Shown here: positions 48,681-62,112 of the stretch, in pieces
Layout: each line of letters begins with the position of its first letter
How positions within the stretch are numbered: position 1 is the stretch's first letter
Source of the DNA: Mangrovibacillus cuniculi
GTDB lineage: Bacteria; Bacillota; Bacilli; Bacillales; R1DC41
Assembly: GCF_015482585.1 (NCBI RefSeq)
Contig: NZ_CP049742.1
Span: forward strand, 702,501 to 766,500
Reading direction: 5' to 3'
Length of the DNA: 64,000 bases
The notes under the pieces: generated by a model
Databases searched by the model: none
What the model was told of the DNA's origin: nothing
Seen by the model: only the letters and a program-made list of their open reading frames with translations
Translations under genes and position numbers: made by a program

Positions 48681-48722
48681 AGAAGAGCTGTCCCGATTCA
48701 GGGACAGCTCATTTTGTTATTG
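48681..48722. terminator. Bidirectional terminator between peptidase and RND genes
   Basis: GAGCTGTCCC pairs with GGGACAGCTC around a 7-base loop, with T-rich tails on both strands. It serves two convergent genes. Confidence 0.9.
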
Positions 48723-51700
48723 TTTTTCTTTTAATTGTTTTTTGCTTTCTTTAAAAAAGAACAGTTCATATAACACTGGTAACAAGACTAACGTTAGCAA
48801 CGTGGAGGAGGTTAATCCACCGATTACTGTAATCGCAAGACCTTTGGAAATTAACGTTCCAGAAGAAGTGGTAAACGCTAATGGTAATAGGGCTGTAATT
48901 GTCGCAAACGCCGTCATTAAGATTGGGCGTAAACGAGTTTTACCAGCTTCCACTAAAGCCTCCCTGATAAACATTCCTTTTTCTTCAATGTTTTGTCCTA
49001 CGCGGTCTACCATCACAATCGCGTTCGTTGTTACGATACCAATTAGCATTAAGAATCCAATCATTACACTTACAGAAAGCGGTTCTTGTGCAATAAATAA
49101 ACCGAAAAGTGAACCTATTGGAACAAAGATTAACGAAGATAAAATAATAAACGGAATTCTTGCTTTTCCAAATGTAATTAGCATGGTGATATAAACTAAT
49201 CCAATTGCAATTAACATAGCTAAACCTAACTGTTGGAAAGTTTCCACTGTCTCATCACTTCCGCCACCACCTTCGAATGAAACACCATTTGGAAGCGTAA
49301 CGTTATCTTGTACACCATTAATTACTTCTTGTGTGACGGCTTGAATGTTGTCTCCGACTATTTGAGCAGAAATACGTGCATACACATTCCCATCAAGTTT
49401 TTGAATACTTGTAAAGCTTTCTACTTCTTTCACTTGAGCTACATCTGATACAGTATATACTCCTTGTGAAGTAAATAGAGGTAAGTTATTTAAATCATCT
49501 AACGTGATTTGATCTTGTTCATACTGAATCTGAAGCGAACGATCTGAATCTGTCAGACTAAAGTCATTAATGGTAACAGGGCGAGTTTGGTCACTAATCG
49601 TTCCTAACACTTGGAATCCACTAATACCTAATTCACTTGCTTTCTTGCTATCAATATCTACAACAATTTGTTTTTGTTTTTCACTAAAGTTGTTGGAAAC
49701 ATATTTTAATGTGTTAAGTGAATTCATGTAGTTTTCTACTTCGATAGACGCTTCTTGCAATGCATCCAAATCATCTGAAAATAAATCAATATTTACATTA
49801 TTATTAGACGGTGGTCCACCTGTAGACTGTTCCTGGACACCTAGAGTTGCTTCTGGTTCCATTTCAAATACAATCTCTTCCATTTGACTCTGTAATTCAG
49901 GAATGAACGAAGCGACTTCTGCATTTTCATTTAAACTTAAGAAATAGTTAGCTTGATTCTTTCGCTTAAGTCCTGTTTGGAAATCTCGACTACCAATACC
50001 AGCTGTTACGTCTTCAATGGTATCATTTTGATCAAAATACTGTTCTAGTTCTAGAGCTATTTCATTCGTTCTTTCTAGTGATGTAGAAGATGGAAGTCTA
50101 ACACTAGCTACTAATAATTTTTGTTCTTCATTCGGGATAAACGTAAATCCAAGGGAGGAAGTTAGGCCAAGTCCTCCTAATAGAGTAAGAACAGATAAAC
50201 TTATAACAATCCATTTTTTCTTAAGAGACCAAAGAATGACTTTACCAAATGCACGTTCCATCTTGCCTTCTTTCTCTTCTGGTGGAACCTTCTTAAACGA
50301 AAACTTAGCCAATATAGGAACAATGGTGATCGCTACGATTAGTGAAGTTAATAAGGCAAAAATAATCGTAAGGGCAAACGGTAAGAAGAATTCACCAGTA
50401 ATTCCACCTACAAATCCTAGTGGCAAGAAAACAACCACAGTTGTAATAGTGGAAGAGGTGATGGCTTTTAAAATTTCTTTCGTTGATGTTTCAATTAAGT
50501 CATTGGTCATTCCTTCTTGTGATTTTCTTACGCGCCGGAATATATTTTCAATTACCACAATACTATCATCCACAACACGTCCAACCGCTACAGCCATACC
50601 ACCCAGTGTCATGATATTTAAAGATATATCTAGTTGATATAAGAATATAGACGCTACCAGTAGGGATAACGGGATGGAGATAATAGCGATAATAGTCGCT
50701 CGAACATTTCGTAAGAATAACAACACGGCAATCGAAGCAAACAATGCTCCTAATAATCCTTCTTTTACTAATGTTTCAACTGATTTCGTAATACCTTCTG
50801 CAGAATCAAATCCAATGGAATAACGGATTTCATCATCGTATTTGTTCAAGACTTCTAACACCTGATCCGCTACTTCTACTGTATTTGCATCTTGTTTCTT
50901 CGTTACAGCCATCGATAAAGATTCTTCTAAGTTAAAACGTGTAATTTCTGGCTTTTCAGATGTTTCTTTTATTTCAGCAATATCTCCAAGAGTTATCGAT
51001 GTAACAGGTGCATTTGGATTTGAAAATGCAGGCGTAATAGTTAAATCTCTTAAGGTTTGAATGGTATCTACTTTTTCTTGAACCCGAACAGGAATTTCTA
51101 TAGATTCACTTGTAATGGTACCAGCTGGGAAAGATAAAGATTTATCTGTAATTTGTTTTCTAATTTCTTCTAACGTTAATCCATACTGAGTTGCTTTATC
51201 GGGGTCCACAGAGATGGAAAGAAGTTCTTCCACTCTACCGCCGACTGAAATGGAATTAATGCCGTTAATTTTGTTTAGTTCAGGAAGTAGTTTTGTATCT
51301 ACTACTTCTTCCACGCTTGTGTCATCAACACCAAATAAAGAAATGTTAAATATAGGGAATGTACCAAAGGAAAACCTATTTATCTCTGTTGATGTAGAGT
51401 CAGGAAGATTTGCTTCTTTAAGAATATTTTCCACTTGCTGCTCTACTTCATCAATATCAGCACTAAATGGAAATTCCATGTTAATGATGGAGACACTGTC
51501 AAATGAAGTACTTGTGATAGATTTTACACCTTCCACTGCATCGAGCTGATCTTCTAATTTACTTGTTACATTTTCATCCACATCTTCTGGTGAAGCTCCT
51601 GGATAAATGGTTTCAACAGATAATGTTGGGAATTCAATGTTTGGTAAAAGGTCCACTTTTAGACGTGAAAAAGAGTATAAGCCAGCCAAAATGAGTAGAA

Positions 51701-51758
51701 ATGAAATAATGAAAATGGCTACTGCATTCCTCAAACTAAATCTTGTTAAGAAATTCAT
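48717..51758 (-). CDS. RND family efflux transporter (SwrC-like), second paralogue
   Basis: The 1013-aa RND protein has the same layout as the one at 16567. N-terminal LPNIEFPTLSVETIYPGASP and TM4 MTLGGMAVAVGRVVDDSIVV show both canonical Asp residues. The closest type in B. subtilis is SwrC (YerP), involved in surfactin tolerance. No fusion protein is adjacent. The start follows GCGAGGAA. The upstream region, shared with divergent ykvI, carries two perfect Spo0A-box sequences. Confidence 0.9.
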   Translation of the reverse strand: MNFLTRFSLRNAVAIFIISFLLILAGLYSFSRLKVDLLPNIEFPTLSVETIYPGASPEDVDENVTSKLEDQLDAVEGVKSITSTSFDSVSIINMEFPFSADIDEVEQQVENILKEANLPDSTSTEINRFSFGTFPIFNISLFGVDDTSVEEVVDTKLLPELNKINGINSISVGGRVEELLSISVDPDKATQYGLTLEEIRKQITDKSLSFPAGTITSESIEIPVRVQEKVDTIQTLRDLTITPAFSNPNAPVTSITLGDIAEIKETSEKPEITRFNLEESLSMAVTKKQDANTVEVADQVLEVLNKYDDEIRYSIGFDSAEGITKSVETLVKEGLLGALFASIAVLLFLRNVRATIIAIISIPLSLLVASIFLYQLDISLNIMTLGGMAVAVGRVVDDSIVVIENIFRRVRKSQEGMTNDLIETSTKEILKAITSSTITTVVVFLPLGFVGGITGEFFLPFALTIIFALLTSLIVAITIVPILAKFSFKKVPPEEKEGKMERAFGKVILWSLKKKWIVISLSVLTLLGGLGLTSSLGFTFIPNEEQKLLVASVRLPSSTSLERTNEIALELEQYFDQNDTIEDVTAGIGSRDFQTGLKRKNQANYFLSLNENAEVASFIPELQSQMEEIVFEMEPEATLGVQEQSTGGPPSNNNVNIDLFSDDLDALQEASIEVENYMNSLNTLKYVSNNFSEKQKQIVVDIDSKKASELGISGFQVLGTISDQTRPVTINDFSLTDSDRSLQIQYEQDQITLDDLNNLPLFTSQGVYTVSDVAQVKEVESFTSIQKLDGNVYARISAQIVGDNIQAVTQEVINGVQDNVTLPNGVSFEGGGGSDETVETFQQLGLAMLIAIGLVYITMLITFGKARIPFIILSSLIFVPIGSLFGLFIAQEPLSVSVMIGFLMLIGIVTTNAIVMVDRVGQNIEEKGMFIREALVEAGKTRLRPILMTAFATITALLPLAFTTSSGTLISKGLAITVIGGLTSSTLLTLVLLPVLYELFFFKESKKQLKEKQ

Positions 51759-60384: not shown

Positions 60385-60404
60385 TGATATTCATTTAGAA
60401 CACA

Positions 60405-60441
60405 TAAAAAGGTGTATTCTTCCTAGAATGCACCTTTTTAT
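60405..60441. terminator. Bidirectional terminator after ptsI
   Basis: AAAAAGGTGTATTC pairs with GAATGCACCTTTTT (one T-G) around a 6-nt loop. It serves ptsHI and the convergent SipW operon. Confidence 0.88.
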
Positions 60442-60446
60442 CATTA

Positions 60447-60974
60447 TTAGATTAAACTTAAAGAAAAACTTATGGGAATATCATATGTTAAATCGGTGTT
60501 TACATCTTTTACACGTACAATTCCCTCGTACTGTCCACCAAGTACACCCAAGAGTGAAAAAATCTGAAAATCTATAGTAACTGGTATTGTACTATTAGCA
60601 GGTATTGTAGATGGATTAACTGTTAATACGCTTGTACAATTTATTACTGAAGAAGCAGGTTTACTTAAAGAGATTATTTGAAATTCTAAAGTGGTACTTG
60701 GTCCTTTATTTATAATCGTAAAGGAAGAAGAATATGACTTTGTGATAGTGGAAATTAAACTTGTATTTCCTAAATCTATTTTTAACTCTTCGTTTATTCC
60801 TGTAGCAACCTCTGAACCGCTACTAGAAAAAATGAAATAAAATTTAATATCTTTAAGTGTGGTGAACGAGTTGCTTAAAGATTTATTGTCGTAGTACAAT
60901 GCGGTACTTGTCGTGATAAGACTCCCGTATAGTGTTAGAGCAAGTATACAAATAAGAGTTAACTTATTTAACAT
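60447..60974 (-). CDS. Secreted protein with SipW-type signal, unknown
   Basis: The 175-aa protein has an N-terminal hydrophobic helix (about 6-25) ending in STALYYDNKSLSNSFT, which parallels the ALFTDxxxxxxNxFxxG cleavage region of SipW substrates. The rest is strand-rich and Ser/Thr-rich, with beta-sandwich character (SSSFTIINKGPSTTLEFQII) like TasA/camelysin relatives but diverged. It overlaps sipW by 11 bp. It is a candidate second substrate, perhaps a minor fibre or anchor component; that is inference. Confidence 0.7.
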   Translation of the reverse strand: MLNKLTLICILALTLYGSLITTSTALYYDNKSLSNSFTTLKDIKFYFIFSSSGSEVATGINEELKIDLGNTSLISTITKSYSSSFTIINKGPSTTLEFQIISLSKPASSVINCTSVLTVNPSTIPANSTIPVTIDFQIFSLLGVLGGQYEGIVRVKDVNTDLTYDIPISFSLSLI

Positions 60975-61449
60975 AATCCTTTTTTCCTAACTCAAAAAAA
61001 CTCTTCACAAAAATAAATGCTAAGAATACACTCATGAGAAAATTCTCTTGTATCCAAAGGATAGTTCCGCCAATAAATGGAAGGTGATATTGGTACGTTC
61101 CTAAAATATCTTTTTCTTTTAGAATTGCATTATCTTTTATTGGATTATCGTCTCCTTTGGTGACATACTTTACTTTGTTCTCTTCAACGAAAATTCTCTC
61201 AACACGATGAAGTACATATGAATCCTTATACTGAAATAAAACAATATCTCCTAAAGTAATTACCTCTTCTTCTTTTGGTTTAACAATTACAGTAGAATGT
61301 TCACCAATTGTTGGTTGCATACTTCCGCTTGTTACTACATAAGACTTCCAACCAAAAAAATAAGGGAAAATTACTATAAATGCAGGGATTAAAAGGACAA
61401 CTAGTATGCCAAAAAGTATTTTATCTTTAAGATACCTTTTCCTTCTCAT
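60964..61449 (-). CDS. sipW: SipW-type (ER-type) signal peptidase I
   Basis: The 161-aa membrane peptidase has the catalytic Ser in VVTSGSMQPTI (about residue 42) and His in YVLHRVERI (about 83) where typical bacterial enzymes have Lys, plus TKGDDNPI, the ER-type box. Helices at each end span the membrane. This type processes TasA/TapA-like matrix proteins. Its start overlaps the upstream TasA-like gene as ATGA and its end overlaps the next gene, so all three form one unit. Confidence 0.93.
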   Translation of the reverse strand: MRRKRYLKDKILFGILVVLLIPAFIVIFPYFFGWKSYVVTSGSMQPTIGEHSTVIVKPKEEEVITLGDIVLFQYKDSYVLHRVERIFVEENKVKYVTKGDDNPIKDNAILKEKDILGTYQYHLPFIGGTILWIQENFLMSVFLAFIFVKSFFELGKKDYVK

Positions 61450-61994
61450 CGACTTGTACCCGGAAGTTGGGTTGCGGTGAAAGTAAACTCTACCTGTTCG
61501 GTTATATTTTGAAATGAGTTACCAGCTGTAACGGGGAATGTTATGAAGACATCTAGCGTCTCGCTTTCACCTGGTAATAAGGATGAAACAGCATTTCCAG
61601 TGGTCATTGCACTAACGGAACCATTATAAATTGATCCCCCTGAATGAGAAACATCTACTTGTAATCCATCAATGGCATCCGTGAATAATAAACTGTTAGA
61701 AAGAGAATTAGATGTTATTTCGTACGTGTATGGGACTGTCCCTGTATTTACTACGGTAATACTACGTAAAATGGAGTCCCCAGGTATAAGGTTTGGTATA
61801 TCAAATAATTGAGTAATAGGACTTAATTCTAAACGTAGAACCGCCGTTTCTACTTCATTTGTAGGTGTGGTTTCAGCGTCAGTAAATAGTGCTGTGGTTT
61901 GTCCAACTAGTAAAAAAACGATTAAGATACACGTTACAAGTATAAAACCTAGAAATTTTTCTGTGGGGAAACTTACATTCTTTTTTGTAAACAT
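61446..61994 (-). CDS. TasA/camelysin-like secreted protein
   Basis: The 182-aa protein has a hydrophobic segment (about 14-33) followed by TTALFTDAETTPTNEVET, the typical SipW-dependent signal region, then a beta-sandwich with ITVVNTGTVPYTYEI and LLPGESETLDVFITFP. TasA-type proteins form extracellular fibres in biofilms and spore coats. This one is shorter than TasA. A ribosome binding site AAGGAGTG lies about 14 nt upstream. First gene of the sipW operon. Confidence 0.82.
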   Translation of the reverse strand: MFTKKNVSFPTEKFLGFILVTCILIVFLLVGQTTALFTDAETTPTNEVETAVLRLELSPITQLFDIPNLIPGDSILRSITVVNTGTVPYTYEITSNSLSNSLLFTDAIDGLQVDVSHSGGSIYNGSVSAMTTGNAVSSLLPGESETLDVFITFPVTAGNSFQNITEQVEFTFTATQLPGTSR

Positions 61995-62072
61995 ACGATC
62001 TAATTTACACTCCTTATAAAATTTTTAGTATATATTTATGTATAATTTTCTATTTTGTTCCTTTTTTGGTAT

Positions 62073-62112
62073 AAAAAGAGCACCCTAATTTTAAATAGGA
62101 TGCTCTTTTGTA
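62073..62112. terminator. Terminator near patA and the SipW operon
   Basis: AAGAGCACCCTA pairs with TAGGATGCTCTT (one mismatch) around a 7-8 nt loop and is followed by TTGTATTTT. It lies between the patA stop and the start of the SipW operon and is best read as the patA terminator. Confidence 0.75.

Follow-up and report, generated by a model that had tools for sequence, protein, structure and literature searches.

A TasA/SipW-type operon variant of Mangrovibacillus cuniculi with a partner from an unnamed protein family

In Bacillus subtilis, TapA gives its N-terminus to TasA and thereby initiates the filament, according to the available text of PMC10151520; the same text describes TapA as not conserved even inside the genus Bacillus. 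The subject here is a compact gene triplet of Mangrovibacillus cuniculi, within a 64,000-nucleotide stretch of contig NZ_CP049742.1 (the window). The original prediction described three genes overlapping end to start and encoding a TasA/camelysin-like protein (A), an ER-type signal peptidase and a second secreted protein (C), with A and C as two candidate fibre proteins. The layout was confirmed: three open reading frames lie on the minus strand, with overlaps of 4 nt between A and the peptidase gene and 11 nt between the peptidase gene and C (Table 1). Strong hairpins lie on both flanks. The one beyond C, whose ptsI-like neighbour was named by eye, has a fold energy of −16.6 kcal/mol on the minus strand and −21.1 kcal/mol on the plus strand (z −5.6 and −9.1), and the one ahead of A, at −20.2 kcal/mol (z −7.65), probably separates the aminotransferase unit from that of A. 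Neither was reported by a consensus terminator scan of the region, and their reading as terminators rests on the folds. Because of these two hairpins, A, the peptidase gene and C appear to form a single unit between the ptsI-like and aminotransferase genes. Genome searches found one M73/TasA-type gene and one SipW-like match in this genome, and a profile search for TapA found none in it, with a B. subtilis control positive for both TapA and M73. The window peptidase, as a lone query against the genome contigs, found no relative.

Table 1. Features of the A-peptidase-C locus, in window positions
Feature	Position	Strand	Basis
Gene A, TasA/camelysin-type fibre subunit, 182 aa	61446..61994	-	Pfam, fold, alignment
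ER/archaeal-type signal peptidase (SipW-like), 161 aa	60964..61449	-	TIGR02228, alignment
Gene C, signal-peptide protein, 175 aa	60447..60974	-	ORF, alignment, predicted fold
Ala25 codon of C, predicted -1 residue of the cut STA|LYYD	60900..60902	-	
Ala35 codon of A, predicted -1 residue of the cut TTA|LFTD	61890..61892	-	
AAGGAG, possible RBS of gene A, 15 nt 5' of the ATG (a longish gap)	62010..62015	-	
Hairpin between C and the convergent ptsI-like gene, probable shared terminator	60404..60441	.	fold energy
Hairpin with U tail between A and the upstream aminotransferase gene, probable terminator	62074..62109	-	fold energy

The product of gene A is a TasA/camelysin-type subunit, as had been proposed. 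It matches Pfam Peptidase_M73 (PF12389) at 47.4 bits against a cut-off of 22.5, and falls below the TasA equivalog NF046066 (11.4 bits, cut-off 450). The predicted signal peptide spans residues 1-35 and the mature chain begins LFTD; in the A-type cleavage site, −1 is Ala in 17/17 proteins and +2 is Phe in 16/17. An AlphaFold model built on 17 sequences (pLDDT 78) has TasA as its best structural matches (5of2, Z 9.6 over 117 aligned residues at 2.5 Å; 5of1, Z 9.3; 8aur, Z 9.1), with MSP and PapD-like domains also among these matches, and Foldseek places the TasA fibre 8aur first (E 2e-4), followed by the Pyrobaculum calidifontis bundling pilus 7ueg (E 7.5e-4). Roske et al. named F29, P62, F200 and Q232 a conserved 'proline box' between TasA protomers (available text of PMC10151520). 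All four residues are kept in A, where F37, P71, F153 and Q176 align with them, the reference being the TasA of locus L106, which is linked to tapA, with residues counted from the MGM at its start. In the model, residues 32-48 have pLDDT below 50 and no secondary structure, as would be expected of a donor strand in the monomer.

The middle gene, described at the outset as an ER-type signal peptidase, matches TIGR02228 at 82.1 bits (cut-off 51.85) and lies below the SipW equivalog NF046067 (62.3 bits, cut-off 190). Its product has two hydrophobic segments, and Ser43, His81, Asp100 and Asp106 are invariant across six aligned sequences; we take these Ser, His and Asp residues to be the catalytic ones of ER/archaeal-type signal peptidases.

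A search for the triplet in other genomes found C in 14 genomes, that of M. cuniculi included, each time next to A and the peptidase gene. The order is A-SipW-C in nine, A-C-SipW in one (G030) and SipW-C-A-A in another (G759); in the remaining three, A is followed by a single frame encoding peptidase and C together (SipW:C). Since the same genes stand together in 13 further genomes, with differing neighbours where these were examined, the triplet is more than a chance grouping. Ten neighbour genes were scanned, and the eight with a family vary among loci: metH, an AMP-binding enzyme, a DUF2157 membrane protein, a sodium symporter, a TetR regulator, VanW, shikimate kinase and, in the window, the aminotransferase. 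Queries with C, counting its own genome and after removal of chance and protease matches, gave 4/299 genomes of the order with the single sequence, 4/16 of one family, 2/398 of a class sample, 8/397 of the order with a ten-row profile and 3/398 of the phylum, in samples that overlap and together yield ten distinct genomes; A and SipW lie side by side in each of the ten. A search with A among named genomes returned 59 loci, seven of which carry C (six-row profile, E<0.01). By contig coordinates three of the seven are genomes already counted, which gives the total of 14, and adjacency of A and SipW in the other four is built into the A-based search.

Several weak candidates were dropped before counting, and the ten-row profile search of the order kept 8 of 20 genomes. 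In two class-sample genomes and eleven order-profile genomes the matches lie inside long subtilase-type frames; G284 (L006) is antisense to a frame named by eye as formate-dehydrogenase-like; and G097 (L084), from the ten-row order search, has 66 aa with two stops. Subtilase-type motifs were present in the long frames of 16/16 loci checked (L012-L014, L082, L083, L085-L095), where a domain of these large subtilase-like proteases gives a weak match to the C profile.

The SipW:C frames occur in Anoxybacillus sp., A. rupiensis and Paenibacillus koleovorans. Each encodes the catalytic part, a second hydrophobic segment (in P. koleovorans under the hydropathy threshold and seen by eye), a linker, a further hydrophobic stretch, a cleavage motif and the C domain. 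The stretch before the fused C ends in AHA|TF, AKA|VW or AYA|LF, and inspection by eye of the three fusions found no clear internal RBS and start codon ahead of the C part. As judged from this layout, the fused C domain would be on the outer side of the membrane, preceded by an internal signal sequence that carries a cleavage motif, and the fusions imply that C would be made 1:1 with the peptidase. The linkers differ, being a short basic loop in Anoxybacillus and a hydrophilic stretch of about 60 residues in P. koleovorans, and so do the places in the SipW tree, which suggests two separate fusion events; a single origin of the three was not rejected (p-AU 0.119) and is shown by 0/200 bootstrap trees. 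Apart from these, tapA and sipW of G104 share one open frame (L109:1471-2913), with an RBS-like site and an ATG ahead of the sipW part. A genuine fusion here would also have an unusual topology, and for both reasons this frame was not counted as support for fusion.

C itself has no Pfam or NCBIfam match at E<=1. Residues 1-25 form its predicted signal peptide, and the mature protein has a TasA-like N-terminus, LYYD...SNSF. Residue −3 of the cleavage site is Val, Ala, Ser or Thr and residue −1 is Ala, Ser or Gly in 14/14 C-type proteins, the fused ones included, and +2 is Phe, Tyr or Trp in 13/14, at the position of TasA F29 in the protomer interface. The likeness to A stops there: hhalign confined the alignment to profile positions 1-43 (window protein residues 1-41; probability 72.6, E 3.2e-5), a match that is partly signal peptide. 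The expectation that C keeps the processing site and little other TasA likeness was therefore borne out. TapA, aligned with a mixed profile of five A and five TasA rows, behaves in the same N-terminal-only manner (36 columns, probability 88.5).

The proposal of two fibre proteins fared less well. If C were a second structural subunit co-assembling with A along the fibre, a common cleavage motif and a common mature start would be expected of the two proteins and were found, and there is a precedent in the heterofilaments that TasA and CalY make in Bacillus cereus, as reported in the available text of PMC13082335. Against such co-assembly, the homology between C and A ends after the N-terminus, and the two acceptor motifs of A are missing from C: AxQ near the C-terminus (TasA Q232) is present in 17/17 A proteins and 0/14 C proteins, and PG[D/R] (TasA P62) in 17/17 A proteins and 2/14 C proteins, at another place in the chain. 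C could thus donate a strand, since its N-terminus and +2 aromatic residue are kept, and shows no sign of accepting one. A 1:1 fusion to the peptidase in three genomes is also ill suited to a bulk subunit, and we regard a second-subunit role as quite unlikely. N-terminal-only likeness, absent acceptor motifs, the predicted Ig fold considered below and the 1:1 fusions together suit a protein needed in small amounts, such as an initiator, chaperone or end-cap, more than a subunit made in bulk.

Structures of both proteins were predicted, and the outcome was TasA-like for A, as anticipated, and of another kind for C. Residues 44-173 of C, approximately, were modelled as a PapD-like Ig domain, with moderate confidence (pLDDT 73, 14 sequences), which does not favour C as a second fibre subunit. 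The pilus chaperones EcpB, CupB2, FaeE, PapD and FimC are among the matches of the model (Z 7.6-8.3), intermixed with other PapD-like, MSP and glycosidase domains; the top rows include ciliary, HYDIN and glycosidase domains, and a Z of 8-9 barely exceeds the level that the structure-comparison tool rates as ordinary. EcpB is also the top PDB sequence match of the six-row C profile, a weak one (E 0.13). Such folds are widespread, A has some of the same neighbours and the C profile finds protease domains, so the PapD-like likeness of C is suggestive only. None of the TapA structures 6qay, 8aif and 6hqc is among the matches listed for the C model.

The same list of neighbours contains WxLIP (Z 8.5), whose DUF916 domain has been proposed to bind peptidoglycan (available text of PMC10599100). 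This, three carbohydrate-binding CBM5/12 stretches on C of G960 (L101:5536-7480) and a C-terminal extension on C of G759 (L100) would be in keeping with a tip adhesin or wall anchor, seated at one filament end and binding a surface through its Ig domain or C-terminal additions. The 12 other aligned C proteins, of 14, end at or shortly past the last conserved strand, which makes this function improbable for the family. The binding modules on C of G960 would equally fit a filament end in general. That gene adjoins a SipW-like frame of only 129 aa as well as a TasA-type gene, and frames resembling type IV pilins were seen by eye nearby.

Is C then a TapA? In B. subtilis, by the available account, TapA is scarce like SipW, its gene overlaps sipW, and it has a complete Ig fold with a Cys pair and a flexible acidic C-terminal tail (PMC10151520). 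C has in common with TapA an N-terminus like that of the TasA-type subunit. The Cys pair and the acidic tail are absent: the window protein lacks a tail and has a single Cys beyond residue 25, and none of the 14 C proteins has two Cys there. An NCBIfam search at E<=1 gave no match of C to TIGR04087 (TapA), and hhalign of C against TapA showed no homology past the N-terminus (probability 7.2); on these results C as TapA was rejected. By analogy, C is most likely TapA-like in action without being of TapA descent.

A strict replacement of TapA by C was rejected as well, since TapA is also present in one (or two) of ten C-bearing genomes tested: the match exceeds the cut-off in G030 and is weaker in G231. 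In the order sample TapA exceeds the cut-off in 61/299 genomes and reaches E<=0.001 in 87/299, so the rate in C-bearing genomes is not clearly under that of the order. Both genomes keep a tapA-sipW-tasA-type locus, with SipW and TasA-type genes of its own, apart from the C module with its own SipW (L117 and L102 in G030; L118 and L099 in G231). In the SipW tree, 14 peptidases of tapA-type loci form one group (93/81), 13 of them adjoining tapA and one being a further SipW of G231. The C-linked SipW of G759 joins this group (96/92), the one from G960 cannot be placed with support and the others stand apart; a single clade of the 14 C-linked SipWs was weakly rejected (p-AU 0.033).

We consider it rather probable that the operon makes a TasA-type filament in which C acts as a TapA-like initiator, chaperone or end-cap and has no second-subunit role. 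A would be the main subunit; the peptidase would remove the signal peptide from A and free an N-terminal strand, which would enter the next A subunit by donor-strand exchange, as shown for TasA. C, we infer, would be exported, cut by the same peptidase, made along with it and kept low in amount. Its TasA-like N-terminus would be offered to the first A subunit, and its Ig domain, being complete, would be unable to accept a strand, so that C may start, chaperone or cap the filament at the cell. SPC22/23 is a beta-sandwich subunit of the eukaryotic signal peptidase complex. That C is a similar membrane-retained accessory subunit, aiding substrate choice or folding, agrees with a three-segment topology of the SipW:C proteins with C outside, but is very improbable given the −3/−1 motif kept in 14/14 C proteins and a hydrophobic stretch ahead of it that looks short in several members (e.g. 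L015, L022).

The operon can be set beside several known systems. Like B. subtilis tapA-sipW-tasA (available text of PMC10151520), it pairs a TasA-type subunit carrying the four proline-box residues and an ER-type peptidase with a partner that matches the subunit only at the N-terminus and has an Ig fold, solved for TapA and predicted for C. It differs in its A-SipW-C order and in a partner that lacks a TapA match, acidic tail and Cys pair and, in some genomes, shares one open frame with SipW. The original prediction is supported in this respect: the operon is a compact one of TasA type that includes an ER-type peptidase and a second candidate substrate, and it departs from tapA-sipW-tasA in both gene order and partner. 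The B. cereus sipW-tasA/capP/calY region likewise combines TasA-type subunits with a chaperone-like partner other than TapA, and CapP, which carries repeats besides its DUF4047 domain, is transcribed separately there (available text of PMC13082335). C, in contrast, has neither DUF4047 nor any other Pfam match at E<=1, and its gene overlaps that of the peptidase; its sequence identifies it as neither of the two partners, TapA and CapP. Clostridium perfringens sipW-bsaABCRSD also yields a SipW-dependent polymer with accessory secreted proteins, and is set apart by gene content and order as given in the available description (PMC7395162). The chaperone-usher chaperones PapD, FimC and EcpB may resemble C in a PapD-like Ig fold (predicted for C, as one likeness among several) found beside a donor-strand-type subunit, whereas C has a single Ig domain, an N-terminal donor-like segment of its own and no Pfam match at E<=1.

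The operon is therefore a TasA/SipW variant with an unnamed partner family, C, to which sequence and predicted structure would assign the role set out above. Conserved, and coupled or fused to the peptidase, C is a candidate initiator for TasA-type filaments outside TapA systems, and SipW:C would be a one-chain form of the suggested association between initiator and SipW. No description of C or of a SipW fusion was found among the titles and abstract starts listed by searches of the open-access PMC literature. A bolder view, which we hold to be unlikely, is that C is the first member of a distinct PapD-like family of donor-strand chaperones that serve the TasA-type filaments of Gram-positive bacteria, and that the SipW:C proteins are self-processing polyproteins. 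If true, each fusion would be a peptidase with its substrate attached through an internal signal sequence; every enzyme molecule would set free one initiator, and subunits would be cleaved where the filament starts, at one membrane site; the interest of the C system would be greater if such self-processing occurs.

Two further observations concern other loci. Signal-peptide-like reading frames follow A-SipW at L021:4901-5350, L023:3627-4874, L042:5078-5584 and L066:4503-5315, in two Chloroflexi and two Actinobacteria loci. They have AFT-, TFT- or AFS-like mature starts and no Pfam match below E 0.05, and are possibly a parallel of C. The window also contains, at 48717-51758, a gene for an RND transporter of the AcrB family (Pfam ACR_tran).
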